From Halorubrum sp. Boch-26 (lineage in GTDB: Archaea > Halobacteriota > Halobacteria > Halobacteriales > Haloferacaceae), in the NCBI RefSeq assembly GCF_029889805.1, contig NZ_JARANT010000002.1:1-63944 (forward strand): a DNA stretch of 63,944 nucleotides, in the 5' to 3' direction. The notes under the pieces are model-generated. The model was given only the letters and a program-made list of their open reading frames with translations. It searched no databases and was not told where the DNA came from. The position numbers and the translations under genes were made by a program. Shown one piece after another: positions 13,754 to 35,664 of the stretch; position 1 is the first letter of the stretch, and each line of letters begins with the position of its first letter.

Positions 13754-14073
13754 TCGTCACCTCCGGCGACCCACCGATCGCGGCGGTCGAGCGCGTCGCG
13801 AGCGGCGTCCGTGAGCGCGTAATCGTTCGTCCGGCGGTCGCGCGTCTCCTTCTCGACGAGCCCGCGGTCGACGAGCTGGTCGAGGTTGGGGTAGAGCCGG
13901 CCGTGGTTCACGTCGATCCCGTAGTACTCTTCGAGTCCGGCTCTGATCGAGGTCCCCTTCTGGTGGTCCTCGCGTTCGAGGAGCCGTAGAATGTCCCGCT
14001 GGAACGCGGTGAGATCGGCGACAGCGCCCGTCCCGTTGACCGCGGGCGTCTCGCCGTCCGCCGCGCTACTCAT
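13750..14073 (-). CDS. PadR-like winged-helix regulator
   Basis: A 107-residue protein. Residues about 20-95 form a PadR-type winged helix: LTAFQRDILRLLEREDHQKG, then GLEEYYGIDVNHGRLYPNLDQLVDRGLVEK, a strand-turn-strand wing and YALTDAARDAL. It probably represses or tunes its own operon, including the integrase. The ATG at 14073 overlaps the upstream gene's stop by 8 bp. In-frame sequence further upstream is a shadow of that gene. Confidence 0.82.
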   Translation of the reverse strand: MSSAADGETPAVNGTGAVADLTAFQRDILRLLEREDHQKGTSIRAGLEEYYGIDVNHGRLYPNLDQLVDRGLVEKETRDRRTNDYALTDAARDALDRRDRWVAGGDE

Positions 14074-14260
14074 CACGCACCTCCCGCACGTCGCTCTGGA
14101 GCGCGCCGAACGCGTCCGCGCACTCCGCGCAGAGCGCCCCGCCGTACGCGGCGTCGTAGCCGTCCGCCGACGCCTCGCACAGCCCGCAACCGCCGGTGTT
14201 TTCGATCGGTTCCTCGGTCGTCGCGCAGGGCTTAAGCCCCGCAGTTGCCTTCGTTGGCAT
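14066..14260 (-). CDS. small zinc-finger protein, first gene of integrase operon
   Basis: A 64-residue protein with CGLCEAS and CAECADAF pairs that can form one zinc site. It is the promoter-proximal gene of the integrase operon. The family is not known. Confidence 0.6.
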   Translation of the reverse strand: MPTKATAGLKPCATTEEPIENTGGCGLCEASADGYDAAYGGALCAECADAFGALQSDVREVRDE

Positions 14261-14430
14261 GGTTCTGTGGTTTCAGCACAGAACCCGACCCGGTCGGGCG
14301 CTACAGACGCCGCGACCGGGATCCTACATTTTCTCACTAGCCGAGGGTTCGTCACTCGGGCTCCGTGGATACATATGAATACTCTCGTTACTTGAATGTA
14401 CTGGTAGTGTTTAGAGATACTATTCGGTCT

Positions 14431-14440
14431 TATATTAAAT
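14431..14440 (+). promoter_or_regulatory. TATA box of PhiH1-like repressor gene
   Basis: TATATTAAAT is centred about 27 bp upstream of ATG 14462. It lies in the 200 bp control region between the integrase operon and the repressor operon, which is where operators for this repressor would be expected. Confidence 0.55.
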
Positions 14441-14461
14441 ACGGGTGCGACAGTGTATTAT

Positions 14462-14791
14462 ATGAGATATGCGGGAGAGTGGATGTCTGCTGCTGACGAT
14501 CGTATTCTAGAGTATCTCTCTGAACACGAATCTGGTTCTCCAACGAAAATGAAGAAGGAGGGGCCGATTCGATATTCGCGTGTTCAGGTCCACCGACGAT
14601 GCAAGAAGCTAGCTGAAAAGGGACTCGTCAAAGATCTCGGAAATGGAATCTACATGATCACCGACGACGGTGAAGCCTATCTCGACGGTCGGCTCGATAC
14701 CGAGAATTGGACCTACATCGATGACGACAGCGACGCTGTTGAGTCTCAAGATCCCACCAACGGTGAGACCTCAAACGGAGGCACCACCTGA
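14462..14791 (+). CDS. PhiH1-repressor-like winged-helix protein
   Basis: A 109-residue protein with the typical opening MRYAGEWMSAADDRILEYL, followed by a winged helix (SRVQVHRRCKKLAEKGLVKDL, then GIYMITDDGEAYLDG). It resembles the repressor of halovirus PhiH1 and many haloarchaeal relatives. ATG 14462 fits both the family start and the TATA box. It is likely the switch controlling the divergent integrase operon. A second winged-helix gene follows directly. Confidence 0.85.
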   Translation: MRYAGEWMSAADDRILEYLSEHESGSPTKMKKEGPIRYSRVQVHRRCKKLAEKGLVKDLGNGIYMITDDGEAYLDGRLDTENWTYIDDDSDAVESQDPTNGETSNGGTT

Positions 14792-15127
14792 ATGCGCGAC
14801 TCCGTTCCGTGGATGGGTGGTCTCGATGAGCGGATCCTAGAACGGCTCGTTGACGATGGCGATGCCGACGCTTGGGAGATCGCGTTCGATATACGCGGTC
14901 GTATAAGCCAAGATCGGGTGACTGAACGGTGTAAAGTGTTAGCTGACGCCGAGCTCGTCGATCAATACGAACATGAGATCGTCGACGGCCGCTTCGAGAC
15001 CTACTGGTCGGTTACGACATGGGGCGAGCTGTTTCTCAGTGAAGACGCCGATCCGAGCCTCGACGTTCCGGTTCCGAATCCGCGGCCGCCGCACGCGACG
15101 AGGCCCGATTGGTGGGCAGGGTTCTGA
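14792..15127 (+). CDS. winged-helix DNA-binding protein
   Basis: A 111-residue protein that starts immediately after the PhiH1-like repressor stop. WMGGLDERILERLVDDGDADAW opens a winged helix like its neighbour's, with a wing around YWSVTTWGELFL and a proline-rich acidic tail. It is a diverged paralogue, possibly an antirepressor or partner. Confidence 0.7.
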   Translation: MRDSVPWMGGLDERILERLVDDGDADAWEIAFDIRGRISQDRVTERCKVLADAELVDQYEHEIVDGRFETYWSVTTWGELFLSEDADPSLDVPVPNPRPPHATRPDWWAGF

Positions 15128-15129
15128 CA

Positions 15130-15417
15130 ATGTCCGATGACGATATTCAAAAATACTCCAAGGAGTGGATTCGAGAGAATTGGGACTATGAACAGGATAC
15201 TGGATCTCCACTGGTACAACTCGTCAAGGTAGTTCACGAACTCCACATCGCAATCCCCGGAATCGTTGCCGCTACCGTTGTTTGTCCGATTCTCTGGTAC
15301 TACGAGATGTCGACACTACAAATTGTCAGTACTGGTCTGGGAACTATCGGTGGCGGCTATGCTCTGTTCTTCAACCAGTGGTGGTGTGCCACTCTTAGCG
15401 ATCCTAACGACGATTGA
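15130..15417 (+). CDS. small membrane protein
   Basis: A 95-residue protein with an N-terminal acidic soluble part and two hydrophobic segments (about 42-60 and 65-85). It is the third gene of the repressor operon (2 bp spacing). Function unknown. Confidence 0.6.
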   Translation: MSDDDIQKYSKEWIRENWDYEQDTGSPLVQLVKVVHELHIAIPGIVAATVVCPILWYYEMSTLQIVSTGLGTIGGGYALFFNQWWCATLSDPNDD

Positions 15418-16135
15418 ATGTCCGACGGAAAGGATCGAAAACTGGGATGTCCATCTTCGGAAGGCTGAATAGGCTGAGTAGTCCCTTCAGAACCTTCTCA
15501 AGCACACGTCTCAGTGTTTGCGAAAGTGTTGTGATCAGATCCAGGATCAACAACACGGCTGTTGTCATCAGAGTGATGGGCATCAGCACTATGAACGCCG
15601 GGAATGCGAGGAGTGTCGACGGACTCAGGAACCAGAGTGGGCTTCCGGTTAGTTTGCCTTCTATGGATGGCAGACCGATTGCGACAAGAATCCCGAACGC
15701 AGGTGCGATGTGAATTGTCACGTACGCAGCGCTGAGCGCCGCAACAGTCATGGTTATTCCAAGGTAGGTGAGAGTCGCATATGTGCTAAAGAGGTCAGAC
15801 ATTATTTCGTCGAATTTCTGAACCAGACCTTCCTTCTCTGCCTCGGCTTCATTACTCAGGTCGGATTCCTCATCCACCTCCTCTTCACTCTCAGTAGCGT
15901 TTAACGAGGTGTTGTAAATAGTCAATCCCATCCAAGATGCCACGAAGTAAGGAACGTAGGTTGTAGCACCGATCGTTTCCGTGATTTCCGCGAATACACC
16001 AGCATCTGCTAGATAAGGTCCGAAGAATAACGCAGAGACCAGCAGAGCCATCAGGTTTCCGAAGGCAGCTCGTGGGAAGTAGCTCGCAAAATGCGAGAGC
16101 TGCTGTTTCGGAGAGCGCTGGCTCTGGTAACTCAT
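15404..16135 (-). CDS. membrane protein with acidic internal loop
   Basis: A 243-residue protein: two helices (about 28-45 and 58-78), a glutamate-rich loop (ESEEEVDEESD region, about 82-110), then three more hydrophobic segments and a basic C-terminal tail. A TATA-like TTTTAACA (plus-strand 16161-16170) is 29 bp upstream of the start. It converges on the repressor operon with a 14 bp overlap. Function unknown. Confidence 0.65.
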   Translation of the reverse strand: MSYQSQRSPKQQLSHFASYFPRAAFGNLMALLVSALFFGPYLADAGVFAEITETIGATTYVPYFVASWMGLTIYNTSLNATESEEEVDEESDLSNEAEAEKEGLVQKFDEIMSDLFSTYATLTYLGITMTVAALSAAYVTIHIAPAFGILVAIGLPSIEGKLTGSPLWFLSPSTLLAFPAFIVLMPITLMTTAVLLILDLITTLSQTLRRVLEKVLKGLLSLFSLPKMDIPVFDPFRRTFNRR

Positions 16136-16397
16136 CGTGGCTGTACCTTCGTTCGCTACATGTTAAAATCACGTGGTCACACTGACTACCGTGCGCTTCT
16201 TCATTTCTAGGTAGTCGACTACATCTTCGAAGCGTCGAATGGAGGCGACTGAATACGCCCGTATGTCTCCTAGACGGCACAGATCGACGAACACGTCTGA
16301 GCGGCTTGCCGAAGACGCAGACGCAGCAGCGTGAGAGTTCGGTGTCGATGTAGCGGGAGCGCTATGTACAGGTCGCGTGACTGAGCGCTGTTCCGTG
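16136..16397. other. gap between membrane protein and PLD gene
   Basis: About 260 bp without a supported gene. It contains the promoter of the 16135 gene. Confidence 0.4.
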
Positions 16398-17735
16398 TTA
16401 GGTGTGTTCAACGCGATCTGCATCTTCCCAGATTCGATCAAAGAATTCAATTGCATCATTTATTGTTTCTGGGTCTTGAGTTAGAATTCCAGCATTAAAC
16501 TCATCGCGGAGCTGATCCCGCGTTAAGTCTGCTGAAGAGACTATTAGTTTGTGGTCATCTGCAATGACTAATCTAGAATGTAGACGGTGGTGTTCTTTGA
16601 CGTTTCCTTCTGTTGCTTCAATCAAATCGTTTAGCACGTCTTTTTTTATCCCCTGACGGTTTCCCTTCACGTTCCTTCCTCTAGTCAGAACTCGAACTTC
16701 TAAGTCTGGATTAGTAACGATTCGATCGATTATTTGATCAAATAACATGTCGATATACAATGAATCAACCCGTAGAATGCTGTTCGCGCTTGTTATCAGG
16801 CTTTCTGCTGAATCTTGAATTTCTGCAGCATACTCTGCAGAAGGAGAGATCGGCACTGTTTGGATAAATTTTGGTCTGATATTCTCATGACGCTGTGCCT
16901 GTTTTTCACTTTTCCAGTTGGACTTAAAAACAGATTCTTTTGGACCCTCTCCAATTGCAATAAGAGATAAAACTTGGTCAGCAATCTTCTTTGGACGCAT
17001 TTCACCAAAATCAGGATCACCACTTACAACTCCAAGATCTGGTAATAATTTCTCAATTTCGGAATCAAAGTTTTGCGGAGCTTTTGATAGAGCCTCAAAT
17101 ATTGGCCATGTGGCAGAATAGTTATCAAACGAGATCGCATCTCTAGCTGCATCGGTATTTGTCTGTAGAGCGTTTAGCATTTCTTCGGCCATCCTGTCGA
17201 TTTCCTCGTTGTATGTATAGATATCGAACTCACAAAGTCCTAATATTCCCACAGCAACATTTGTGAATGTAGAACCAAAATTAAATTTTTCATCCCGATC
17301 ATTAGATACAAAATGAGAGACTGCATTTTGCACGACTGCTGATTCTGGTTTGAGTATAGATAGAATCCATAGGGGTGACAGGTCTACATCAGACAAATGG
17401 AAGTTCCCATTAACCGTCTGGTTATTCTCCATAATCTCTGTGAAAGGGCGTAATTCTTTTTTATTGGGGATTTCGTCGTGTATACGATAGGTTTCTAATA
17501 GATGTATTAAACATAATGGAAACTCAAATGCGATAGTGTGTTCATCATAGGAACCCGTATTCCAGTCATTCAAAAAGTTGCCTACAGCTGGGTGTTCGTA
17601 ATAAGCTAACACTCTATAGATTGGAGAATGCGTGAGTTTGTTACTTGTAGTCTCTTCAGATTCAACAAAAGTAGCCAATTTCTCGACTCTTGTTCGAGTC
17701 CTTTCTGAGGATGTGTTGAGGTACTGTTTGTTCAT
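16398..17735 (-). CDS. large protein with C-terminal phospholipase D-like domain
   Basis: A 445-residue, unusually AT-rich gene. The N-terminal 290 residues are helical and unrecognised. The C-terminal 150 residues resemble a PLD-like domain: YIDMLFDQIIDRIV, LEVRVLTRGR and HSRLVIADDHKLIVSSADLT. The last corresponds to an HxKx4D motif in which the lysine is replaced by arginine, so catalysis is uncertain. A TATA-like ATATACTTAC lies about 30 bp upstream. PLD proteins occur in defence loci (for example DrmC in DISARM). Position next to methylase and PglZ genes makes a defence role plausible, but this is inference. Confidence 0.7.
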   Translation of the reverse strand: MNKQYLNTSSERTRTRVEKLATFVESEETTSNKLTHSPIYRVLAYYEHPAVGNFLNDWNTGSYDEHTIAFEFPLCLIHLLETYRIHDEIPNKKELRPFTEIMENNQTVNGNFHLSDVDLSPLWILSILKPESAVVQNAVSHFVSNDRDEKFNFGSTFTNVAVGILGLCEFDIYTYNEEIDRMAEEMLNALQTNTDAARDAISFDNYSATWPIFEALSKAPQNFDSEIEKLLPDLGVVSGDPDFGEMRPKKIADQVLSLIAIGEGPKESVFKSNWKSEKQAQRHENIRPKFIQTVPISPSAEYAAEIQDSAESLITSANSILRVDSLYIDMLFDQIIDRIVTNPDLEVRVLTRGRNVKGNRQGIKKDVLNDLIEATEGNVKEHHRLHSRLVIADDHKLIVSSADLTRDQLRDEFNAGILTQDPETINDAIEFFDRIWEDADRVEHT

Positions 17736-17819
17736 TTATCGGTTAGAAGTATTCTAAATGTAAGTATATGGCGTGATAGATACTCAGAGTATGCAAATGC
17801 CGCGAGAAGATTACTGTAG

Positions 17820-18022
17820 TCAGTCCACCCTATTTCCGATTGCTTCTTCGACGATCTCGATCTCGTCCTCAGTCACCCCGTACAGCTCGTAGACGATCTC
17901 GTCGATAAGCCGGTCCGTCTGCTCGATCTTGGCGTCGAGCTCCTCGGCACGCTCCTTCGTCTCCAGGTAGTTCTCCAAGTCGTCGGCCACGTCGTCGACG
18001 ACCTTGTCTTGCGGTTCGAGCT
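17820..18022 (-). pseudogene. C-terminal tail of an Eco57I/PglX-type methylase (copy A)
   Basis: The frame reads ADDLENYLETKERAEELDAK and then IEQTDRLIDEIVYELYGVT, ending RVD-stop. This coiled-coil tail closes many Eco57I-type restriction-modification proteins. It is preceded by an in-frame TAG at about 18020 and has no catalytic part. It is nearly identical to copy B at 18716-18900, including a 72 bp exact stretch. Confidence 0.6.
17877..17948. repeat. 72 bp exact direct repeat, copy A
   Basis: Identical to 18767-18838; similarity continues with scattered changes to about 17995. The two copies lie in the same orientation and bracket the 18056-18547 gene. Confidence 0.75.
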
Positions 18023-18055
18023 ACCTATCCTCCTCTACCAGAGTTCAGAGACTCC

Positions 18056-18547
18056 TTACTCACGGTGGACTTGATACTCTAAGTAATCAAGCCGGTCCTC
18101 CAGTTCAGATACCTCCTCATTAAGATCTGCTTCAACCTGCCGGAAACGGCTTTCAAGAGTCATGTGCGGTGAGTCGGAACCCACATCGGTCACATCGTCG
18201 ATCTCCGCAATAGGGTATATTCCTCCACCCTCCCAAGTAAAGTAGAGGCCGGAGTCAATTTGTCCCTCTCCAGAGATATAATTGAACCTCACCTCAGCAT
18301 GCCAATACCTGTTTAGAAGTATATTAGAAACTATGGACTGTCTTGCCGCTGTAGCACCTGTAATAGAATCCTCGCCTGTTAGGTCTGTGGGATACAGATG
18401 CTGATAGTTCTCTATCAAGTACTCATCTATCTCTTTTATCGAAAATGCCTCCTCACTGTTATTGGATAATAGCTCGGTTATGTGTACTCGGAGCGGGTCG
18501 TCTGATCCTGACTCCTTCCAAATATCGGAGTTAGTATCAATTGGCAT
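18056..18547 (-). CDS. hypothetical protein between duplicated methylase tails
   Basis: A 163-residue acidic protein. A helical N-terminal half (DPLRVHITELLSNNSEEAFS) may be a winged helix, and the C-terminal 30 residues form a short coiled coil (VEADLNEEVSELEDRLDYLE). Its own TATA-like ATATAATTAAA (plus-strand 18572-18585) lies about 30 bp upstream. Its GC is lower than its flanks, and it sits exactly between two direct repeats, as if swapped in by recombination. Confidence 0.65.
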   Translation of the reverse strand: MPIDTNSDIWKESGSDDPLRVHITELLSNNSEEAFSIKEIDEYLIENYQHLYPTDLTGEDSITGATAARQSIVSNILLNRYWHAEVRFNYISGEGQIDSGLYFTWEGGGIYPIAEIDDVTDVGSDSPHMTLESRFRQVEADLNEEVSELEDRLDYLEYQVHRE

Positions 18548-18715
18548 GTCTTATAATACGATCAGAACGGTTTAATTATATCGCGTTTTAGACAGTAGTT
18601 TCAAATATCACATATAGACCATAGAATGTCCACACGCTCATCTTTTAATAAGTCCGAGTAGCCCTCCTCGATCGCTCCCGCCTCTCTCATTGGCTATCGG
18701 TCGTAGATCTTCCGA

Positions 18716-19030
18716 TCAGTCGTCGCCGACCGCCTCCTCAACGATTTCGGTCTCTTCTTCGGTCAACCCGTACAGCTCGTAGACGATCTCGTCGATAAGC
18801 CGGTCCGTCTGCTCGATCTTGGCGTCGAGCTCCTCGGCGCGCTCCTTCGTCTCCAGATAGTTCTCCAGGTCGTCGGCCACACCGTCGACGTCCGGCAACT
18901 CGATCGCCTTCAGCCGATCGACGAGCGAGTTCGTCTTCGTCGCCGTCTCCCGGAAGTTCGCGAAGCCGCCCGCCTCGTCGACGGCGACCGAAAATAGTCC
19001 CGTAGTCCCGCGATAGTCGCTACGCAGTGT
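18716..19030 (-). pseudogene. C-terminal fragment of an Eco57I/PglX-type methylase (copy B)
   Basis: The frame contains GGFANFRETATKTNSLVDRL, then the ELPDVDG, TDRLIDEIVYELYGLTEEE tail and VGDD-stop. This is the end of a large R-M or PglX-like protein. No methylase motifs precede it; upstream the frame runs through unrelated codons towards 19087. It is a relic of a lost methylase gene and the partner of copy A. Confidence 0.6.
18767..18838. repeat. 72 bp exact direct repeat, copy B
   Basis: Partner of 17877-17948. Confidence 0.75.
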
Positions 19031-19053
19031 GCGCCGATCAGGCCGGTCGAACC

Positions 19054-19449
19054 CTACGACTGAACGTTGATGTTGCTGTAGTACCAACCCGACCCTTCCT
19101 GCTCAATCCCGTGGAAAATAGTCCGTAGCGGAACCTCGTCGTCTCCATCGCGGAATACGGGTTCGTCCCAGTATTCGAGATCATCGACCACAAATTGGAC
19201 TCGGGGGTTCTCTGCGAGCAGGAAATTGACGTGGTCTCGGAGCAGATTGTGGACGTAGTCGCACGCATCATGCGGGTTATTCGCACTACGGATGAAGTCT
19301 CCGAGGCCGTAGACAGTAACGTCATACGGGAGACTGTCCATCCGCTTGACGCGGCGGAGGAACTCGACGACGCTCATCTCATCGTCGAACGTCCCATGTC
19401 GCTCGACGGCGTCCTCCGAGTGCACGTGGAAGCCGATGTCCATGCTCAT
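19054..19449 (-). CDS. hypothetical protein downstream of DUF1156 methylase
   Basis: A 131-residue protein starting MSMDIGFHVHSEDAVERHG. It is acidic, with no recognised domain. It lies 70 bp downstream of the methylase on the same strand, so it may be the last gene of the defence module or a separate immunity/accessory gene. Confidence 0.6.
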   Translation of the reverse strand: MSMDIGFHVHSEDAVERHGTFDDEMSVVEFLRRVKRMDSLPYDVTVYGLGDFIRSANNPHDACDYVHNLLRDHVNFLLAENPRVQFVVDDLEYWDEPVFRDGDDEVPLRTIFHGIEQEGSGWYYSNINVQS

Positions 19450-19519
19450 TCTCTTACGTCATACTGGTGACGCCTTCCCCTATAAACGTCAGCACAGATA
19501 GGGGTCAGAATTCGCATTG

Positions 19520-22180
19520 TTACGAGAAATCCTCCAGATCGAGCTGGGTGTCAGTCCGATCCTCGACGTACTCGGCGATGTCGATGTACTCGTCGTCGTT
19601 CTCGATCTCGGCGAGTCGTCGAAGAGCAGCAATGGCCCCTTCATCTGTCCATTTTCCGAACTTCTGAGCCAACTGATCGGTCTCGTAGAGGTAGCGGAGG
19701 TAGTGAGCTTTGTCGACAGCGAGGGGGTTCTGCTTGCGTTCGACATCGTCGGCACGGTCTAGTGGACCACGAACGTTCAGGTCGTCACCCTCCTGCTCCA
19801 ACAGACGCTCGTTGACGAGTTCCGCGACATCGACGCCGCGCTGACGCAGATCCTTGTTCAGTGCGTTGTAGGAGACCGTTCCACCCCGTCCGAGTACGTA
19901 GGTGAGGTAGATGGCACTCAGAGTGTCCATCTCGTCACCCATCGTCTGGACCCGCTCCTCCATTAGCTGCTCGTCGACAATGTCACGGATCGTCCCGACA
20001 GCGTCGTTGACGGACATCTGTTCCCCTTCGTGGGTGACGTTCGGGAAGTGACGCGAGTACACTTCGAGACACTTGCCCATCGTGACTGCGAAGATGTCCC
20101 CTTGCGTGAGTCGGGAGCCACTCTCTTCGAGACGGTCGATCTCCTCTTGGGCTCGGAAGTAGATCTCGTCTTCGAGGGACCGCCAACTGACGGTCTCGGG
20201 GTCTTCCTCACGGCTCCGACAGACGACGATCATGTCGTACTCGATGTTGGCCTTATCGTGGATATGCGTGGAGCCTCGCATCTCTCCACGGATGGGGTAC
20301 AGGGAAGTAACGTAGAACCCCGCTTCGAGAACGGACCTCAAGACCGTACTCCACCCTTCAGTCTCTTTGTGGTGGAAGGTGAAGGCCATGATTCCGTCGT
20401 CCTTGAGCTTCTGGTTGGCTTGGTCGAAGACGTTCGTCAGACCCGTGACGAAGTGATCTTCATCGCGGTAGGTGTCGACGCTATCCTCGCCAGCTGGGTC
20501 GCTCACTACTTCACTTGCCTTTGGCGTGAGTTCGGCACCAAAGTGATCGTACTCGTCTTCGAGCACTTGCTTCAGCCACACATAGTAGAAGTCAGCAGTC
20601 TCCGAGTACATCACGTTGTCAAAGTACGGTGGGTCCGTGATGACAGCATCAACACTGTTGTCGTCTATCGGAAGATACTCCGAAGTCCCACAGCGGAGAT
20701 GGACATTATACGTCGCGTCTTCTTTCCCCTCGACGGGCTCACCGATCTCAGCAGGATCGTCGGTGACGTAGCCCTCGATCTTTCCGACCCCGTCGCGTTG
20801 TTTCGTCTCTCCATCTTCGACGTACTTCTCGTAGGGATTTAGACAGAATTCCTTACCCGCCCGCATCTTGTCGAACTCTGTAGAGAAGGTTGCGGCTCCT
20901 TCTTCAGTCCCCCAAACATTATTTTCAACAGGAGTATGCCGTGCCGTGATAGTGTGCCGCTTATACATCCCCTGTATTTTGTTCGCAGAAGTGTGATATT
21001 CGCAGAACATATTATTGAATGTCGTAGTGTCTGAGAATGCCAACAGGAGGAATTCCTTCACGTTCTGATCCTCTATTTTTTCTATTTCTTTCAGCAGCTT
21101 AGATAAGGAAAGCAATTGTCGCGGATTGAACATCTGGTCGTAACGTTCGTATCCATGCTTTCGGGCACGGTCTGAGCTTCCTCGGTACCGTTTTGTTGTC
21201 GGGATGGGGAGCTCGTCACGCTTTTCTTCGAGCTCTGACTCAGCCTCGGAGAACAAATCACGATCAAACTTCGTTGCCGATTTGTACCCTTTCTCGCCCG
21301 TTTCAGGACAGTAGTATTCGACAGCGTAGAGGGATCGCTCAGCCTTCCCGAAGCGTTCGACGCTCTCGATAATCGACATCTCGGGATGTTCGTCACAGTG
21401 GGGGCAGGTGTAGCTCCCGCGGGAGACGTTCCCTGCGTCCTTCGGAACATATTCGTGTGAACACTCGGGACACGTGGTGTCTGTACGGTAGTCGTCCGTC
21501 TCGAAGACGTTCCAGCAATCGGGGCAGATAACGTTATAGTGATCGTCCTTCGAGGAACGGGCATTAGAGAGACGGTAGTCTTTGAACAGAGCGACATCTT
21601 CGCCACAGTTCCGACAGGGGAGTTCATTCACCCAGAAAGAGTACATAGCGTCGGCGTGATCGTCGCAATGCGGGCACTCAGTTCGATAGTAGTCTTTAAT
21701 TTCTTTGCCGACACTCTCTTCCAATTCCTCAAACGCAGCGTCAAGCTCATCCAGATCGACGGGCTCGACTTCCTTCTTCACGACGAACCACGCGACGGGA
21801 TTGAGTTCACTCCCAATAGCGTTACACCCCATACGGAGAGATTCAACAATACTCGTCCCCCCACCCATGAAGGGATCAAGGACGGTCTTGTCTCCGAAAT
21901 CGATGTCTTCGAGGTAGTAATCCCAGAGAGCATCAGGATTCTCCCAGTCTACTTCCGGAAGTCCATCGATGGTTGATTGTCCACCGGTGTCGACCGACAT
22001 TTCCTCGTCGGCGAGCGAGTAGAGCAGCATCGTTCGGAAGACCGAACCCAGTCGCCGTGCCCACCATTTGTGCATGGTGTAGACGGGGCGATAGTAGCGT
22101 TTGGCATGGGCTTCTTTTTCGGCTATCTCATTCACTTGGTCAATTGGAAATGAGATTTCGATAGGTCGCTTGTCGCTCAT
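19520..22180 (-). CDS. DUF1156-type DNA methyltransferase with multiple zinc ribbons
   Basis: An 886-residue protein. The N-terminus (PIEISFPIDQVNEIAEKEA, then YTMHKWWARRLGSVFR) is the DUF1156 signature. A SAM-binding DPFMGGGT is at 102-109 and a catalytic DPPY at 516-519, so it should methylate an exocyclic amino group (N6-adenine or N4-cytosine). Between them lie at least five CxxC pairs (about 169, 189, 219, 237 and 259), giving two or three zinc ribbons. The C-terminal 200 residues are helical and may recognise the target. It is the modification component of the module with the upstream PglZ and ATPase genes. A GTTATAG-like sequence about 20 bp upstream could be a separate promoter. Confidence 0.88.
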   Translation of the reverse strand: MSDKRPIEISFPIDQVNEIAEKEAHAKRYYRPVYTMHKWWARRLGSVFRTMLLYSLADEEMSVDTGGQSTIDGLPEVDWENPDALWDYYLEDIDFGDKTVLDPFMGGGTSIVESLRMGCNAIGSELNPVAWFVVKKEVEPVDLDELDAAFEELEESVGKEIKDYYRTECPHCDDHADAMYSFWVNELPCRNCGEDVALFKDYRLSNARSSKDDHYNVICPDCWNVFETDDYRTDTTCPECSHEYVPKDAGNVSRGSYTCPHCDEHPEMSIIESVERFGKAERSLYAVEYYCPETGEKGYKSATKFDRDLFSEAESELEEKRDELPIPTTKRYRGSSDRARKHGYERYDQMFNPRQLLSLSKLLKEIEKIEDQNVKEFLLLAFSDTTTFNNMFCEYHTSANKIQGMYKRHTITARHTPVENNVWGTEEGAATFSTEFDKMRAGKEFCLNPYEKYVEDGETKQRDGVGKIEGYVTDDPAEIGEPVEGKEDATYNVHLRCGTSEYLPIDDNSVDAVITDPPYFDNVMYSETADFYYVWLKQVLEDEYDHFGAELTPKASEVVSDPAGEDSVDTYRDEDHFVTGLTNVFDQANQKLKDDGIMAFTFHHKETEGWSTVLRSVLEAGFYVTSLYPIRGEMRGSTHIHDKANIEYDMIVVCRSREEDPETVSWRSLEDEIYFRAQEEIDRLEESGSRLTQGDIFAVTMGKCLEVYSRHFPNVTHEGEQMSVNDAVGTIRDIVDEQLMEERVQTMGDEMDTLSAIYLTYVLGRGGTVSYNALNKDLRQRGVDVAELVNERLLEQEGDDLNVRGPLDRADDVERKQNPLAVDKAHYLRYLYETDQLAQKFGKWTDEGAIAALRRLAEIENDDEYIDIAEYVEDRTDTQLDLEDFS

Positions 22181-22249
22181 TGTTTTGTATTCGGTTTCTA
22201 TAACTGTGTTAGGGTTTCGATTGATTATCAGACAAACTACAGAATGATA

Positions 22250-22696
22250 TCAGTAGTACCCATATTCTCTTCCCTGAGCTCCTTGCCCCGTGGAACCCAA
22301 AACGCCATTTGACTCAGCGTGTGTTCTCCAGTTATCTACGTCACTATGGGAGGGATTTCTAATATCTAAATTGTAACAGCGTCCACTATACCAGGTGTTA
22401 TCTGCTGTATCCTTCTCAAACCGAGCTATCTTATTTGGATAATATGTTTGAGAGAATGCACTGAACGCAGTTGGAAAAAAGATCCTCCACTGAGGTGTAT
22501 AGTGGTCAGAGCTATGATGTTTGAAATCTCTGCTGTCCCATACGGCACCCTGATGTCTAATAGCGATTGTTGTTTCTTTACCACTTTTCTCTTCAAAAAA
22601 GTCTGCTAAGTGTTCTGCGATCTCCAATATGTATCTATCTTCGCCTTGCATGGAGCCCGTTTCTATCCAGAATACGTCAGCATCAGAGACGTTCAT
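22250..22696 (-). CDS. hypothetical protein embedded in PglZ-methylase module
   Basis: A 148-residue protein (MNVSDADVFWIETGSMQGED start) rich in aromatic residues and histidine, with an NxWYSGRCYNLDIRNPSHSD-like middle and a Gly/Tyr tail (REYGYY). I do not recognise it. It is lower in GC than its neighbours. It has its own TATA-like TTTTTATTC (plus-strand 22719-22730) 28 bp upstream, so it may be expressed independently of the PglZ gene. Confidence 0.65.
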   Translation of the reverse strand: MNVSDADVFWIETGSMQGEDRYILEIAEHLADFFEEKSGKETTIAIRHQGAVWDSRDFKHHSSDHYTPQWRIFFPTAFSAFSQTYYPNKIARFEKDTADNTWYSGRCYNLDIRNPSHSDVDNWRTHAESNGVLGSTGQGAQGREYGYY

Positions 22697-22718
22697 TCTA
22701 TATTTACTTTCTTCTCTC

Positions 22719-22730
22719 GAATAAAAACCT
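22719..22730 (-). promoter_or_regulatory. TATA box of 148-residue gene inside the PglZ module
   Basis: On the minus strand, GGTTTTTATTCG is 28 bp before the ATG at 22696. It sits in the 47 bp between the PglZ stop and this gene. Confidence 0.5.
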
Positions 22731-22743
22731 TTCCACCACGATA

Positions 22744-23634
22744 TTACTTCTCAATGTCTAATTTAATTCGTGGAGTTAAGCACTCAGCAAGGCTTAGTCC
22801 GCCATGTTGGAAGGTACTGTACTTGCCTCGGGCAGGCCAGGTGTATCTGCCGATAGGCATGTAGTATCCGTCTGCTTCGACGACGAGTCCCGCGTTGACG
22901 AGATGTCTCGCGTCAACGTCCCCAACACTCTCGAATCGTCCGCTGAATGTCTCTTGGAGGGCCGACTTCTCGCTATCGCTTATCTGGAAGGTGTGCCCGG
23001 AATCGAGGCGGGCATACCCGTGGTCCGAACCGATCACCACGCGATCAGTATCCAGTTGATCAAGGATCGCTTGTAACGCCGTCTCAGTCTTCTCGTACAT
23101 CTCTTCAATCGACGAGAGTTTTGTCTTCCCCTCCTGTATGTTTTCGAGGAGGGCGTCGGGGTACCGACACCAGATGATCTCCTCGTCGCCGTCGAGACTG
23201 GGCTCTTGGCTCTTGACATCCGCCGTCTTGTGGTCTTTCTTGATCTGGGAATAGTCGACTCGATCGCGGTAGAACTTTGTCTCCGAGGGAACTGAGGAAA
23301 AGGAGAATCCCGTCTCAGGTTCGTGTCCTTCGTCTTCGAGCATATCGACGAACATTGACGCCTCGCGGACGCTCATCGCATCCATTACCACGAACGTCCC
23401 GTCTTCGGGGATATCGAGGGAGGCTTCATTGACGCACTTGTCGGGCAAGACATCAGTGAAGAATTCCTGATAGACATCCAGTAGAAGACGCTCGTAGCTC
23501 ACAGCGTCGGTCTCGCGTCCGTAATGCTCGGTGACATCGTCGCCGGCGGGATACCAGATGTCCCAGAGGGTATCCCATACTGCTGGGACAGGGTCGTCAC
23601 TCTCAATCAGCCGGGTGAGAGACTCAGTTCTCAT
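22744..23634 (-). CDS. pglZ: short PglZ-type alkaline-phosphatase-fold protein
   Basis: A 296-residue protein with the three PglZ landmarks: FVVMDAM (metal-binding Asp about 85) followed by SVREA, IGSDHGYARL (203-206) and KYSTFQHGGLSLAE (277-279). PglZ proteins are core factors of BREX and phage-growth-limitation systems; their exact chemistry is unclear. BREX PglZ is usually 700-900 residues, so this is close to a bare core domain. The start is ATG 23634 (overlap of 11 bp with the ATPase stop), or GTG 23640. The overlap implies co-translation with the ATPase. Confidence 0.85.
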   Translation of the reverse strand: MRTESLTRLIESDDPVPAVWDTLWDIWYPAGDDVTEHYGRETDAVSYERLLLDVYQEFFTDVLPDKCVNEASLDIPEDGTFVVMDAMSVREASMFVDMLEDEGHEPETGFSFSSVPSETKFYRDRVDYSQIKKDHKTADVKSQEPSLDGDEEIIWCRYPDALLENIQEGKTKLSSIEEMYEKTETALQAILDQLDTDRVVIGSDHGYARLDSGHTFQISDSEKSALQETFSGRFESVGDVDARHLVNAGLVVEADGYYMPIGRYTWPARGKYSTFQHGGLSLAECLTPRIKLDIEK

Positions 23635-26107
23635 CTTCACGCTCCACGGTCACTGTTGCATCGATGTGTTCCCCACTCGGGAGCTGCTCAAGGAATTCGA
23701 CCAATTCGTCCTTCGAGAGGTTGTCGACATCGTAGGACAGATCGATATGTGTTGCTGCGTCTTTCTCCCCGTTTATCCGCGAGTCTGCCATGCTCCGCAG
23801 TACACGAGCACTGTTTCCTTCGAGTTTGATAGCCTCCGTGGAGACTGTGACAGGACTCGTATTGTTGGACTTGGGAGGCACTGACTTCGTTTCGGGTTGT
23901 TGTTTGAGGGTCGTCGTATCGTCGATCTCTCCCTCGCCCTCGTCTTCACTATTTGGTACTGGCTCAGGCTCTTCCTCGAAGATTGATTCGTCGAGGTTAT
24001 CTGGATGATGGATTGTTAGGTCGTCAGAGAGGTCAGGCAGCGCATCGCCCTTCTGTGGTACGTAGAAGTTTGCTCGATCCCCTTCGAGTACTATTTTCTC
24101 ATCGCGATATAGCTGGCTAACCGCCGAGTAGAAGACTTCGTCGGAGAGGAGTATGGGCATCCGACGGAATTGCTTGAAGTCGTTGAGCATCGACGCGATT
24201 GCGATACCGTTCTCAGCATCCGCAACTTCCTCTCGGATCTTCTCGCCGACGTAGGTTTTGTCTCGGCCAACCTTGTCCTTCACGTCGTCGACATCTGCCG
24301 CGACATCGATCCGACGCATCCGAATTCCATCACCACTTGGGTCTTCGCTCCACTTCACCCACTTCCCGAACCGGTCTTCTAGTTCGTTCCGAAGCTCTCG
24401 CCGCTCGTCACGGATGATCGACGTAAGTTCTCCGCCGTCGTCGACGTTCCCACGGAGATTTTCAGCTCCTAAAACACGAGCTGCCTTGCTGATTATCTCC
24501 TCATCGTCGCGGATTTCCTTCTTTGGTGTGACAAACAGAATCGTGTTCTGGTAAGTCCGTCCCCCAAAGAAGTCGTCAAGCTTCGCACGCAGTGCCCCGT
24601 TAGAGAGGTAATCAAGCATCACCACGGTGGTCAGTTCCTTTCTGTCGGGGACATCCTCGTCAGGGTAGACAGACACATCATCACTCCAGACATCGCTACG
24701 GACAACATCGACAAGGGTCTCTTCGATGCTGCCACGGTCGTCTTCGAGTACCCGCTCCTGTTCACGAGTCACCAGCGCCGTGAGCTTCGGATCTTCGGTG
24801 AGGTAGTAGTTCTCTTTCTGCGAGTCGCGATCGAGATAGTGAGCAACCCCGTAGAGCCCTTCCAACGACATGTGGAGCTTGTCGACCGTCGCTTTCTCCG
24901 GCTTGAACGTTCCAAGGAGGCACTCGGTTACTGACGCTCGCTGTCCCCGTTCCTCGATAGTGTAGAGGAAGATCGTCCGAAGGAGGTCATCGCCGAAGTC
25001 GATGTCGTCGACGGCGTCCTTGTCGGAGGTATAGCGGTTGAAAAGTGTCTGATTGATGCCTCGGAAGGCGCTCGGTGTGATGTCACACGTAATAAGGAGA
25101 TCTGTCTCATCATACTTGCGGCGGACCGTATCAGCAAGAACGTTCATCACACCACGGACGCTCTGTCGCTCCCGACCCGCGTCGTAGACATCATCGAGTA
25201 GGTCGAGAAGTTCGGGATGGAACGGGTATGTCTCGACCATACGGTTCTCATATCGCTTGGGTTCGTCAATCTCGATAGGGTAGTTATAGTGATCGACGTA
25301 CTCGCTGACAACATCACGAATCGCCTTTTCGTCGACATCACCCTGACGAGTTTCGAAGAGCCGATGGAGGATGATCTGCTCTCGGTCCCCCGTGTCGTTC
25401 ATATCGACGGCGTAGGGATTGGTTCGATTGACGATGCGCTTGATGTCTTGACTCTTGTCGAGGAGGGTGGCAAAAGCGAAGAGATCCTCCTCTGGGTCGT
25501 TCGCCACTTCGAACAAATGCTGGAGGAAGAACTCATTTCGTTCGAGCAGCTCTTCGTTCTCGCTCTCGTCGAACGATTCCCACCAAGTTTCGATCTCGTC
25601 GAAGAAGATAGCGACTGGTTCCTCCTCGGTTAGTCGTTCGAGATGCTCTGTTGTCGGGTACCGTTTGATGTCGTCCAGGATATCTTCGCGACCTAGATCC
25701 TCGAAAATCGGTTCCCAGATGAGATCTGCGTCGGTCTCGCTAGTGGAGTGAATTGTTGCCTTCGAGCTCTCGGGGAGATCTAAGGAAACATCCCATTCGT
25801 CAACCCATTTCTGAGCGACGGTTGGGCTGTTGAACATATGGTAAAGCACGAGAAGACCGTGAGACTTCCCGGCTCCATAGGGCCCAGAGAGAGTGATTCC
25901 TCCTTGGTTGTCCCGCCCACGAAGCTTGTTATCCACGTGATCGAAGGCCGTCTGGAGGGCGTTCGAGGGATAAGTCATCGAGAACAGCCGATCTGCATCG
26001 TTCTCCAATCGATCCTGATCGGAGCCCACCTTGTGAGCCTGCAAAACTCCTTGGAACTGACCCTCGATAACTTCGTCCCGAGGAGTGAGGAAATCCGCGA
26101 TCGTCAT
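23624..26107 (-). CDS. BrxC/PglY/DUF499-like P-loop ATPase
   Basis: An 827-residue protein with Walker A GPYGAGKSH at 75-83 and Walker B IFFDEIETW at about 168-175. The region around residue 100-600 is the long helical body seen in BrxC/PglY and DUF499 ATPases. Near 610-690 there are winged-helix-like segments. A low-complexity acidic linker at about 700-745 leads to a small C-terminal domain (about 750-827). It is the first gene of the module and overlaps pglZ. It is probably the AAA+ motor of the system. The family assignment between BrxC and DUF499 is not settled from sequence alone. Confidence 0.82.
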   Translation of the reverse strand: MTIADFLTPRDEVIEGQFQGVLQAHKVGSDQDRLENDADRLFSMTYPSNALQTAFDHVDNKLRGRDNQGGITLSGPYGAGKSHGLLVLYHMFNSPTVAQKWVDEWDVSLDLPESSKATIHSTSETDADLIWEPIFEDLGREDILDDIKRYPTTEHLERLTEEEPVAIFFDEIETWWESFDESENEELLERNEFFLQHLFEVANDPEEDLFAFATLLDKSQDIKRIVNRTNPYAVDMNDTGDREQIILHRLFETRQGDVDEKAIRDVVSEYVDHYNYPIEIDEPKRYENRMVETYPFHPELLDLLDDVYDAGRERQSVRGVMNVLADTVRRKYDETDLLITCDITPSAFRGINQTLFNRYTSDKDAVDDIDFGDDLLRTIFLYTIEERGQRASVTECLLGTFKPEKATVDKLHMSLEGLYGVAHYLDRDSQKENYYLTEDPKLTALVTREQERVLEDDRGSIEETLVDVVRSDVWSDDVSVYPDEDVPDRKELTTVVMLDYLSNGALRAKLDDFFGGRTYQNTILFVTPKKEIRDDEEIISKAARVLGAENLRGNVDDGGELTSIIRDERRELRNELEDRFGKWVKWSEDPSGDGIRMRRIDVAADVDDVKDKVGRDKTYVGEKIREEVADAENGIAIASMLNDFKQFRRMPILLSDEVFYSAVSQLYRDEKIVLEGDRANFYVPQKGDALPDLSDDLTIHHPDNLDESIFEEEPEPVPNSEDEGEGEIDDTTTLKQQPETKSVPPKSNNTSPVTVSTEAIKLEGNSARVLRSMADSRINGEKDAATHIDLSYDVDNLSKDELVEFLEQLPSGEHIDATVTVEREDEN

Positions 26108-26254
26108 TATCTAATTCAACTGTGAGGCACGGCCTCTTTGGTGTTTCCCATCAGCACAGTGTCAACAGTGCTGTGATGTAATCTCTCCCTCTCACATGAG
26201 AGTGTTAGAACACCCCTCAGAGGTGAAATCTTCTGGTGGGATCGCCAACGCTGA
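26108..26254. promoter_or_regulatory. upstream region of the defence module with two hairpins
   Basis: The 147 bp before the ATPase gene contain the inverted repeat CAGCAC-N10-GTGCTG (about 26153-26174) and the palindrome CTCTCACATGAGAG. They could be an operator or the terminator of the GIY-YIG gene upstream. No canonical TATA is obvious. Confidence 0.4.
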
Positions 26255-27208
26255 TCAGAACTGGTCTCGCGGCGCCTTCGTATTCGCCAGCCAGTGTGCG
26301 CCGATCAGGTCCGTCTCGATCTGCTCGCGCTTGTGCTGTGCGTCGCCGTCGTCGACGATCGCGTAGCTGAACACCAACGCTTCATCCCGATTCCGGCGGT
26401 GCTTGTAGAGCCGACTCTTCAGGTTCCCGCTCTGTCCGATGTACTCCAGCGGCTCCGGCTCCTTGCGGTCCCAGATCCGATACACACCAGCATCGGTCGG
26501 GAGCCCGTACGCGTTCGCGAGCGGTTCGGGTTCGGTCCAGTCGAGCCCCATCCACGATCGACTCGTCGGCTCGTCGGCGTCCGTCCACGGGAGCGGTCCG
26601 ATGCCGGTTGCCGAGTTCGACTCGGTCTCGTCGTCGTCGAGCGCACCGCCGGTAAATCCCCCCGAGCGCTGGCTCGACCGCTTGTAGCCCTCGATGATGC
26701 GCCCGAAGTTCGCCGTCGTGTTCTCGCCCGACTCGCGGCGGTACACCGCGATCAGCGCCTCCTCGATCGAGAGCCGTCGCTGTCGCTGGTCGATGTCGTC
26801 GGGCTCGATGACCGACACCTGGAAGGCAGGCCCGTACTCCTGTCTCACGGCCCAGAGGCTCGGCGCCGCGACGTGCGGGTCCGTGTACGGCATCTCGTCT
26901 TTGTAGCACCCCGAGAGAGCGCGAAGGCGGCCGCGGAGGCTGCGACCAGTCTGGCCGATGTAGGTGAGGCCGTCTCGATCGAGATGTCGAACGCGGTAGA
27001 TACCCGGGTTCGTGGAGATCTCCGAGAGCTCGCCGTCGGCCGGGTTCAGGCTGAGCCACGGTGACCAGTCGAACCCCATCCAGTCGGAGCCGTGGTAGTC
27101 AGACTCGTTGATCGGAGTCACGTAGTGGGACTTTGTTCGGCGATCGCTATTGAGTGTTGGCTGTCGATTTCGGTGATCGCGATCGTCGACGCCGATTCGA
27201 CCACCCAC
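26255..27208 (-). CDS. protein with two GIY-YIG nuclease-like domains
   Basis: A 317-residue protein. GIY-YIG motifs occur twice: GIYRVRHLDRDGLTYIGQTG near residue 68 and GVYRIWDRKEPEPLEYIGQSG near residue 244. Each is followed by an arginine (SLRGRLRAL; NLKSRLYKH), and the first by a downstream E-x-x-L segment (IEEAL). It may be a paired-domain homing or restriction-type nuclease. The start is either GTG 27208 (a GGTATAC box lies about 33 bp upstream) or GTG 27121. It is upstream of, and co-oriented with, the ATPase gene. Confidence 0.75.
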   Translation of the reverse strand: MGGRIGVDDRDHRNRQPTLNSDRRTKSHYVTPINESDYHGSDWMGFDWSPWLSLNPADGELSEISTNPGIYRVRHLDRDGLTYIGQTGRSLRGRLRALSGCYKDEMPYTDPHVAAPSLWAVRQEYGPAFQVSVIEPDDIDQRQRRLSIEEALIAVYRRESGENTTANFGRIIEGYKRSSQRSGGFTGGALDDDETESNSATGIGPLPWTDADEPTSRSWMGLDWTEPEPLANAYGLPTDAGVYRIWDRKEPEPLEYIGQSGNLKSRLYKHRRNRDEALVFSYAIVDDGDAQHKREQIETDLIGAHWLANTKAPRDQF

Positions 27209-27475
27209 TTTCAGTCACTCGTCGCCGACCGAGATTTCGGTGTATACCGCCGGTCTCCATCGCGGGGGGAGGTGGTGGGTTGGCGTACGCGCGAGCGCGT
27301 AATCTCCCGCTCGGCGCGACTCGCCGCGATTCTGCCGAGTGATTGAAATCGGTTTCAGTTGGCGTATTCTCTGAACTCACGACGAACTGATCCGACGAGC
27401 AAGCACTACAGGTACAATTTTCGACGAGTAGGTAGCACAGAAAGTTGATATAACCGGTGATCGTCACGTTTCGTA
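27209..27475. other. divergent intergenic region
   Basis: Contains a TATA-like GGTATAC (minus) for the GIY-YIG gene and TTGATATAAC at 27445-27454 (plus) for the gene at 27476. No gene is seen. Confidence 0.45.
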
Positions 27476-28039
27476 ATGAGTTGGATCCACGACCTCCTCC
27501 CCTCAAGCCGGCCCTCCCTCGAAGATGTTCAGCCTGAGCGAGAAGAACGATTTCCCCGTCATACGTACGGACCTGGATATCCGATCGTCGTTCACCAGCA
27601 AGAGATCGATGACCTTCGTCGTCTCTTGGAGATAGAAGGTGACGCGCCAGATGGATGGGAGAACGACCCACTGCTCAGTAGCGAGGACTTCGACGAGATC
27701 ATCGAGGATGTAACCGGATTCGAAACTCCGCCTCCCGAGGCGCGCCGCGACGAGATTGAGGAGATTATCGACTCATGGCAGGAGCAACTCACCGATTCCC
27801 AAGACGCCGTCTGGACAGCGATTGGCACCGATTACCGGTTCAAGATCTACATCGCCCGTTGTGAAGCCCGAGCAGATGTAGAGGGAGACAGATTCGAAAT
27901 ACCGCCCGAGCTTGAGACTGCACGCGAGATCCTCGAACGAATTGAAACCGCTCAGAACACCGATTCGAAGCTGGCGATCGTTCACAAGCGCGATCTCCCG
28001 CTAGAGGAGCCAGAAGAAGAGCCGACAGGAGCGAGTTAG
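27476..28039 (+). CDS. hypothetical acidic helical protein
   Basis: A 187-residue protein (MSWIHDLLPSSRPSLEDVQ start), strongly acidic and mostly helical, with no known domain. A TATA box (TTGATATAAC) lies 27 bp upstream, supporting ATG 27476. It is transcribed away from the GIY-YIG gene. Confidence 0.65.
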   Translation: MSWIHDLLPSSRPSLEDVQPEREERFPRHTYGPGYPIVVHQQEIDDLRRLLEIEGDAPDGWENDPLLSSEDFDEIIEDVTGFETPPPEARRDEIEEIIDSWQEQLTDSQDAVWTAIGTDYRFKIYIARCEARADVEGDRFEIPPELETAREILERIETAQNTDSKLAIVHKRDLPLEEPEEEPTGAS

Positions 28040-28203
28040 CAGTACATCTGAAGACGCGAGATTTCAGCCTCGCTATTTCACGGAGCAATATACCGATCGA
28101 ACGATCGAATAATCAGAATATTTGTCGTGTCTACAGACGTGAATACACCAGAATGAGACAATAACCCCACATTTTCAAGTTGTACCGAGACAATACGTAA
28201 TCG

Positions 28204-28452
28204 ATGTCCGGAGATATCCGCAAGCTGCGCGATCTCGGTAACGGAAGCGGCGGTATGGTCATCCCGAAAGAGGTCCTCCGCGAGTGGGGACTAGTCGATG
28301 ACGACGGCGAGGTGATCGACGCACACCTCTACTCCTCCACTTCTGACGGTGTCCTCACGGTCCAACCGCTCGGCGCGGGTAGTGCCGATGACGACTCACA
28401 GCCCACGCGCTCGACCGGCCGGTCGATCCCGGCGTCAAAAGCCGACCTGTAA
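28204..28452 (+). CDS. AbrB/SpoVT-like DNA-binding protein
   Basis: An 82-residue protein with a swapped-hairpin signature: KLRDLGNGSGGMVIPKEVLREWGLV, then a second strand pair ending VLTVQPL. It resembles antitoxin/transition regulators of the AbrB fold. No toxin gene is adjacent. Confidence 0.7.
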   Translation: MSGDIRKLRDLGNGSGGMVIPKEVLREWGLVDDDGEVIDAHLYSSTSDGVLTVQPLGAGSADDDSQPTRSTGRSIPASKADL

Positions 28453-28667
28453 CTCCGGTCTTTTCCTTCGACGGTTCGCCCGCCAGCTCACTCGCCGAGC
28501 TGACGCTCTATCGCGACGATCGATCCGGTCCGCTTCCCCTCCCCCTCACGTCCCTATACATACGCCCGCGCATGGGTCAGATTCTGAGCAGGCAGCAGCA
28601 ACTCCGAACCGGTCGATCTCAGAGGGCGTCACATCGAGATATACGGCGATCTCAGTGTGAATTCCGG
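28453..28667. other. gap between AbrB-like and second integrase genes
   Basis: 215 bp without a supported gene. Confidence 0.4.
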
Positions 28668-29279
28668 TCAGACTCGGTCGATGTGGTCGTAGACGCGCTC
28701 GGTCGTCTGAATACTCGCGTGCCGGAGCCGGTTCCGCACGTCGTAGAACGTGTTCCCGTCCTCGACGTTGAGCATCCGATAGGCGACGCTGTGGCGGAGC
28801 GTGTGCGGTGTCACGTCTTCCGGCTCGCCACGACCGGCGACGGTCATCGGACGCACGTCGGCGGCGACAGCCGCGTCTCGCACGACGTTCCGCACGGACT
28901 CGGTCGACATCCGGTTCGACTGTCGCGAGGGCCACAGCGCCGCGGTCTCCTTCCATCGTCCGGCGAGGTACATCCGGAGCGTTCGAACTGTCTCGTCGGC
29001 GAGCTCGATCTCGGTGTAGCTCGGCGAGCGGTCGGTCGGGTAGTCCTTCTGGAGGTCGGCCGGGAGCGCGATCACGCCGTCGTCGAGGTCGAGGTGGTCG
29101 TCCACATCGAGCGCGATCGCCTCGCTCACGCGAAGCCCCGAGTCGTACAGCGTCGCGATCAGCGCGTCGTTTCGCGTCGCGAGGTACGTCGCGCTCGCTT
29201 CGACCGTTGCACTCCGCATCTTCTCGACCTGCTCCGGCTTCAGCCAGACGGTCGCCTTCTCTTGAGTTTGGGAATCCAT
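28668..29279 (-). CDS. tyrosine recombinase lacking the core-binding domain
   Basis: A 203-residue protein that is essentially only the catalytic domain: Arg in YDSGLRVSEAIALD, the H-x-x-R box in THTLRHSVAYRML, a later H in RLRHASIQTTE and the nucleophile Tyr in VYDHIDRV. The missing N-terminal SAM-like domain (about 100 residues) matches a family of short haloarchaeal recombinases. TTTATAAAC at about 29305-29315 is well placed as its promoter. It may resolve multimers or act as a second integrase. Confidence 0.82.
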   Translation of the reverse strand: MDSQTQEKATVWLKPEQVEKMRSATVEASATYLATRNDALIATLYDSGLRVSEAIALDVDDHLDLDDGVIALPADLQKDYPTDRSPSYTEIELADETVRTLRMYLAGRWKETAALWPSRQSNRMSTESVRNVVRDAAVAADVRPMTVAGRGEPEDVTPHTLRHSVAYRMLNVEDGNTFYDVRNRLRHASIQTTERVYDHIDRV

Positions 29280-29337
29280 TGTTCGGTGTGTTCTGTGGTG
29301 GGTTGTTTATAAACGGTACAGCGAGGAAGGGCGGTCA

Positions 29338-29367
29338 GTTTGGGAGTCTATACAAAGAAACCCAAAC
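29338..29367. promoter_or_regulatory. inverted repeat upstream of second integrase
   Basis: GTTTGGG (29338-29344) and CCCAAAC (29361-29367) form a perfect 7 bp inverted repeat with a 16 bp spacer. It lies between the short recombinase and the right-hand operon and could be an operator or hairpin. Confidence 0.35.
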
Positions 29368-29406
29368 TCGTCTTAGGCGTTGACACACCCCCGATCGGTC
29401 TCTTGC

Positions 29407-29628
29407 TCACTCGACATCGTCTGTTTCTCCCGAGATCTCAGTGTACTCTGCCATACGCGCGGCTGCGATTCCACAGAGCAACGCGATCACCGCCGTCGTC
29501 GAGACGACATCTGGATGCTCAGGGTACAGCACCAGCGGGACGAGCGTCGCCGCCGCGATGAACACAACGCCGACCCACGTCGCCGGGTGGGTGAGCTGCC
29601 GGTAGACCACCGAGCGTTCGCTAGGCAT
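29407..29628 (-). CDS. small membrane protein
   Basis: A 73-residue protein starting MPSERSVVYRQLTHPATWVG, with two hydrophobic segments (about 17-35 and 42-58). It is the last gene of the right-hand operon; its start overlaps the upstream small gene. Confidence 0.55.
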   Translation of the reverse strand: MPSERSVVYRQLTHPATWVGVVFIAAATLVPLVLYPEHPDVVSTTAVIALLCGIAAARMAEYTEISGETDDVE

Positions 29629-29788
29629 CGTCCAACCTCGCAGGCGTCCGCACGTCTCGGGCGGTTGTCCACGGACGTACTCGGGCTCCGCCTCCGCCGT
29701 ACGCCCAGACGGTCGCACCAAGTAGGTGTTCACGGGCGATCGCAGTCCGACTTCGATCGACCCTCTCGGTGGATCCGTCACTCGCCAT
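29621..29788 (-). CDS. possible small gene in overlapping operon
   Basis: A 55-codon frame (MASDGSTERVDRSRTAIARE start) that fills the space between two operon genes and overlaps each by 8-11 bp, like other genes here. The composition is arginine-rich and not clearly haloarchaeal, so it is tentative. Confidence 0.35.
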   Translation of the reverse strand: MASDGSTERVDRSRTAIAREHLLGATVWAYGGGGARVRPWTTARDVRTPARLDDA

Positions 29789-30059
29789 CGTAGACCTCCG
29801 GCTCTAGGCGCTCTCGTGCGTCACACAGTCGCTGCCAGCCGGCCATTGCGATCTGTGCTCCCCTGAAGAGCCCGTACATCAACCCCGCTGACACGATGTA
29901 GAACGTCGCGATGAACGGATACACCACGAGCAGCGGCGTGATCCGAAGCCGGCCGTAGGCCGTCCGCTGCCGCCACTCGTTCCGTAAGTGAGCGACATCG
30001 CAGCCCACGCCGTCGACGATAGCGATGAACGCGTCCGAGAGTTCCTCATTAGTCGTCAT
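29778..30059 (-). CDS. small protein with one or two membrane segments
   Basis: A 93-residue protein beginning MTTNEELSDAFIAIVDGVG, with a hydrophobic stretch at about 45-70. ATG 30059 overlaps the TOPRIM gene's stop. Function unknown. Confidence 0.55.
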   Translation of the reverse strand: MTTNEELSDAFIAIVDGVGCDVAHLRNEWRQRTAYGRLRITPLLVVYPFIATFYIVSAGLMYGLFRGAQIAMAGWQRLCDARERLEPEVYDGE

Positions 30060-35646: not shown

Positions 35647-35664
35647 AGCGGGCCGGGCGCGATT
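35647..35664 (+). repeat. attachment site (attR) within tRNA-Lys 3' end
   Basis: AGCGGGCCGGGCGCGATT, identical to 12039-12056. It reconstitutes the 3' half of the acceptor stem of the tRNA. Confidence 0.85.

Follow-up and report, generated by a model that had tools for sequence, protein, structure and literature searches.

Open reading frame calls across the window, meaning the whole 63,944-nt stretch of Halorubrum DNA analysed here, place five genes on the minus strand. Their coordinates agree with those given in the earlier note, which had described five same-strand frames with an ATPase overlapping a PglZ protein of 296 aa, the length obtained here from the ATG at 23634. The ATPase and PglZ frames overlap by 11-17 nt. 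The features of the locus are as follows, with the support for each in brackets.

23624..26107, minus strand: DUF499-type AAA+ ATPase, 827 aa (Pfam DUF499 2.4e-9, PADLOC HmaC 7.7e-20, motifs)
22744..23640, minus strand: standalone PglZ, 298 aa from GTG or 296 aa from ATG (fold, profile, invariant columns)
22250..22696, minus strand: X, 148 aa, apparent accessory insertion (homologues in three Halobacteria, no copy in H. salipaludis, GC content)
19520..22180, minus strand: DUF1156 DNA methylase, 886 aa (Pfam N6_N4_Mtase 1.1e-13 and DUF1156 3.3e-6, PADLOC HmaB 1.2e-50, motif count)
19054..19449, minus strand: Y, 131 aa, fourth member of the conserved core and candidate BrxB-like iSTAND (24 Halobacteria cassettes, fold model)
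18744..26198, minus strand: block common to Halorubrum salipaludis, broken only by X (blastn)

The ATPase carries intact Walker A (GPYGAGKS) and Walker B (AIFFDE) motifs and its DUF499 match lies above the Pfam cut-off. BrxC/DUF6079 is not found in this protein, as its Pfam scan returns DUF499 alone and the PADLOC BrxC model gives 0.0053 over 50 residues. The methylase contains the DPFMGGG and DPPY motifs and five CxxC motifs. The NCBIfam models for "anti-phage-associated" DUF1156 (1.4e-31) and DUF499 (9.5e-12) proteins also match, at scores far below their cut-offs. No Pfam family is assigned to X or Y in the Pfam scan.

The PglZ protein is recognized weakly by Pfam, with an E-value of 0.0028 that falls under the cut-off, and its identity is backed by fold and profile comparisons. 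Its AlphaFold model (pLDDT 88) matches PorX (Foldseek E 4.5e-8) and the BREX PglZ 9zn5_B (Foldseek E 1.6e-7), and the family profile reaches the PglZ chain 9nv3_C at 6.7e-7. The invariant columns of the family are D87, T121, D206-H207 and H279, and the conserved metal-site residues are present in this standalone PglZ. PglZ nicks and cuts DNA, a nuclease activity that was only recently demonstrated (PMC13326643), and it is likely the effector of the cassette. Family and fold matches together bear out the proposal that this is a compact BREX-like module in which a core-only PglZ is combined with a DUF499 ATPase and a DUF1156 methylase takes the place of PglX.

Recurrence was assessed in 292 Halobacteria genomes, 24 of which encode a PglZ of the window type (E ~1e-26 or better). 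These proteins form two groups, 56-88% and ~30% identical to the window PglZ, and carriers include Halorubrum lacusprofundi and Haloferax larsenii. The order ATPase-PglZ-methylase-Y on one strand is intact in all 24 genomes, as are the Walker A/B, PglZ and DPPY motifs; X does not recur. Such recurrence of the gene set is far beyond chance. With H. salipaludis and genome G069 as references, dN/dS is ~0.04-0.05 for the ATPase and methylase, 0.05-0.06 for PglZ and 0.09-0.10 for Y, indicating that all four genes are kept by strong purifying selection. In several loci (L050 14131-18880, L091, L092, L095 and L096) the gene immediately after Y encodes a Dam-like adenine methylase, and an McrB-like ATPase and its partner lie nearby on the opposite strand.

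The cassette appears to be mobile. A blastn comparison of window positions 14000-30000 with H. salipaludis locus L049 aligns 18744-26198 at 82-86% identity between unlike flanks, and this difference in the flanks indicates that the cassette moves as a block. Six haloarchaeal plasmids have the identical gene order, and five close relatives of the window cassette are plasmid-borne. Integrase genes lie on both sides of the cassette within the window, where two integrase-like ORFs, a PCNA-like gene and a tRNA-Lys gene (12131-13249, 28668-29279, 32165-33013 and 35648-35722) point to at least one integrated element surrounding it. The GC content is lower across 14-26 kb of the window. A 168-nt direct repeat (90%) occurs at 17836-18003 and 18726-18893, and its copies look like remnants since the second lies inside an ORF that matches the C-terminal end of Type IIG restriction enzymes. 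At 16398-17735, ~1.3 kb past Y, lies a gene whose 445-aa product ends in a DrmC-like PLD domain; as a candidate for a missing nuclease it was rejected, having no homologue adjoining any relative tested.

The earlier note had counted X as a member of the module, a claim that fails on comparison with other loci, since X is missing from H. salipaludis and from every other cassette examined. In H. salipaludis, the nearest cassette (ATPase 92% identical), the methylase begins almost directly after PglZ, at the position where the window has ~560 bases between the two genes. X resembles the C-terminal ~140 residues of proteins of 343-366 aa from three other Halobacteria (32-36% identity), whose N-terminal parts give weak PLDc_2 matches (0.0005-0.003), and it starts at the domain boundary of these PLD-nuclease-like homologues; it has no match in the phage and plasmid records searched. 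Its GC content is 43%, compared with 54-56% for the four core genes. We read X as a recent accessory insertion, akin to the C-terminal domain found in PLD-nuclease-like proteins, and as only this domain is left it may be a remnant. A functional role for X as a core subunit here, for instance as a DNA-binding domain redirecting specificity, would fit an intact ORF inside the cassette that starts at a domain boundary, but its lower GC content, its truncated form and its absence from even the nearest cassette make this very improbable. Elsewhere the same interval is occupied by SIR2 and HerA-like genes (Citrobacter), by a gene for a DUF3800 protein (Chloroflexota) or by an unknown gene together with one for an HSDR_N_2 protein (ANME-2), and from these contents it can be read as an accessory slot that receives effector-like genes. 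The Citrobacter arrangement (L094 10933-24144) is a complete Type-3 BR locus, as defined below, with the SIR2 and HerA-like insertions and adjoining Tn7-like transposition genes, and is found on Citrobacter and Klebsiella plasmids.

The greater part of the gene set already has a name. The DUF499-centred BREX-Related (BR) systems described by Rakesh and Krishnan in January 2026 (PMC12839542) include a Type-3 built from a DUF499 ATPase, a DUF1156 methylase, a standalone active PglZ, an iSTAND protein and a Swi2/Snf2 helicase. According to the same study, the methylase carries two zinc fingers in its recognition insert in a subset of systems, the standalone active PglZ extends across all 569 Type-3 taxa (134 of them archaea), the iSTAND gene is present in 82% of loci, and the helicase, BrxHII-like and without a nuclease, is listed as retained (PMC12839542). 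The cassette has in common with Type-3 BR the DUF499 ATPase, a zinc-finger DUF1156 methylase and a standalone PglZ with conserved metal-site residues, and the predicted fold of its small conserved gene fits the iSTAND description. It differs in the Swi2/Snf2 helicase, which is missing at the locus, in the window genome and beside the 24 haloarchaeal cassettes. The suggestion of a new minimal variant is therefore only partly upheld, since the gene set is largely that of an already named subtype, which is much of what the earlier note had itself set as refuting, and the novelty is confined to the missing helicase. No mention of helicase-less loci was found in the main text of PMC12839542. On this evidence the cassette would work like a BREX/BR core, but as the helicase is a listed component of Type-3 BR, it is best read as a variant of that kind without a helicase and not as an ordinary member.

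The absence of the helicase was examined at several scales. With an HMM trained on helicase sequences taken from four complete loci, 20-kb stretches around the 24 Halobacteria cassettes contain no full-length helicase within ~10 kb in any case, the sole trace being a 453-aa fragment ~7 kb away in Haloarcula japonica; the window has none. At E<=1e-5, the Methanoperedens helicase has no match in seven of the 24 whole genomes, including the window genome, whose assembly is 95% complete, and two genomes assembled in one contig (G280) and three contigs (G182). The other 17 encode some Swi2/Snf2 homologue elsewhere, on other contigs or >70 kb from the cassette, and the one match whose neighbourhood was read sits in a TaqI-like methylase operon. 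The loci of Methanoperedens (L069) and of Citrobacter (L094), Tenderia (L114) and Aminobacter (L115) plasmids share the order ATPase-PglZ-slot-methylase-small gene with the window but differ in that the helicase is the next gene, directly after the Y position. No helicase was found at the Chloroflexota (L055) or ANME-2 (L057) loci. In trees, the two haloarchaeal groups are separate and each is well supported, and Methanoperedens (with helicase) and ANME-2 (without) together form the sister of the second haloarchaeal group. This distribution suggests that the helicase has been lost repeatedly, with the deep order and the placement of the DUF499 ATPase in the Type-3 clade unsure in these quick trees, which have long branches and one outgroup row.

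Comparison with other defence systems places the cassette near BREX Type I, whose core of BrxB, BrxC, PglX and PglZ comprises the same four roles and with which it has the PglZ fold in common. It is unlike BREX Type I in having DUF499 for BrxC/DUF6079, a PglZ of only ~296 aa, a DUF1156 methylase for PglX and no BrxL. The window genome has no match to BrxL (PF13337) or BrxB (PF08747), both of which were matched in control genomes; it also has none to BrxA (PF08849), but neither did the controls. The earlier statement that helicase and BrxL are lacking is thus confirmed, for the helicase at the locus and beside the 24 cassettes, and for BrxL across the window genome. The ATPase and methylase are homologous to HmaC and HmaB of the Hma system, or Type-1 BR, from which the cassette differs in lacking the HmaA helicase-nuclease at the locus and in having PglZ and Y. 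ARMADA was considered and set aside, as PglZ, DUF499 and DUF1156 go unmentioned in its paper; PglZ, DUF499 and BREX likewise go unmentioned in a survey of archaeal immunity. Two haloarchaeal plasmids (L116 10974-17314 and L118 10971-17302) carry a 1077-aa DUF499 ATPase, a DUF1156 methylase and a Y homologue without PglZ, with a second DUF1156 gene upstream, an arrangement that looks undescribed.

Y is present in every haloarchaeal cassette examined. Its model (pLDDT 88), for which 20 sequences were used, shows four core strands and additional ones following strand 4. Its fold matches are of the RecA/AAA+ type and all weak (Z <=5.3), with no BrxB or other iSTAND structures among the matches listed. 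A Walker A motif is absent. Searches against PDB sequences gave chance hits only, no sequence link to BrxB was found, and a profile comparison with the gene at the same position in bacterial Type-3 BR loci was not significant. The predicted P-loop-like fold without Walker A fits the iSTAND description of PMC12839542, making Y a candidate that may fill the BrxB role. The claim that the module lacks BrxA and BrxB is consequently probably wrong in substance for BrxB, given a conserved gene whose predicted fold suits a BrxB-like iSTAND, while direct sequence homology between the two was not detected.

For methylation, Type I BREX requires no more than B:C:X:Z, and the same four proteins are also required for restriction; B:C:Z form a core complex, and BrxL can be spared in methylation and varies in its importance for restriction (PMC13326643). 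As the four conserved genes can fill these roles, we infer a defence guided by methylation in which PglZ is the effector and no helicase takes part. The reading we prefer, and think somewhat more likely than not, is that of a mobile, BREX-related haloarchaeal defence cassette without the Swi2/Snf2 helicase, acting as a four-protein unit that matches B:C:X:Z. The DUF499 ATPase would correspond to BrxC, the DUF1156 methylase to PglX and Y to BrxB/iSTAND, alongside the standalone PglZ. The methylase would be held in an ATPase-PglZ-Y complex, where its zinc-finger recognition insert would read the target site and host DNA would be methylated. On unmethylated invading DNA, the ATP-driven complex would activate PglZ to nick or cut, and a helicase would either be unneeded or be replaced by a host motor. 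Methylase alleles have been exchanged relative to the ATPase, being ~62% identical to the window methylase in L050-L052 and ~80% in L035, L053, L037 and L038, with ATPase distances similar or reversed. Such exchange would be expected if it is the methylase that determines the target site.

Two other explanations bear on the missing helicase. The cassette could be a modification-only module that methylates DNA and does not restrict, serving regulation or the protection of mobile elements against host restriction. Its location on plasmids and beside integrase genes and the sufficiency of B:C:X:Z for BREX methylation (PMC13326643) agree with this, but strong selection on the PglZ active site and the requirement for the same four proteins in BREX restriction (PMC13326643) argue the other way, and we regard it as rather unlikely. 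The selection on PglZ is itself open to a second reading, as BREX methylation also needs PglZ, which could thus be kept for methylation alone. Somewhat less likely again is the full Type-3 BR mechanism with a Swi2/Snf2 helicase acting in trans from elsewhere in the genome. The homologues in 17 of the 24 genomes and the helicase inside the operon of close relatives (L069, L094, L114 and L115) would favour such an arrangement, against which stand the seven genomes without a match at E<=1e-5 and the assignment of the sole match with a known neighbourhood to another operon. Within the preferred reading of a helicase-less defence unit, the stronger claim that the cassette is a complete minimal BREX-type immune machine, in which the ATPase, PglZ, methylase and BrxB-like partner would be enough for self-marking and restriction, with PglZ as the sole nuclease and no helicase or BrxL-like motor, is put forward tentatively. 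On that claim, the absence of the motor from two separate haloarchaeal lineages would mean that it has been dispensed with more than once.

We know of no settled account of how BREX restricts phage. A natural cassette of four core proteins without helicase or BrxL offers a direct test of whether the core alone can restrict, and so of how little machinery such defence needs. If the proposed reading is true, the published definition of Type-3 BR, which has the helicase as retained, would be amended.
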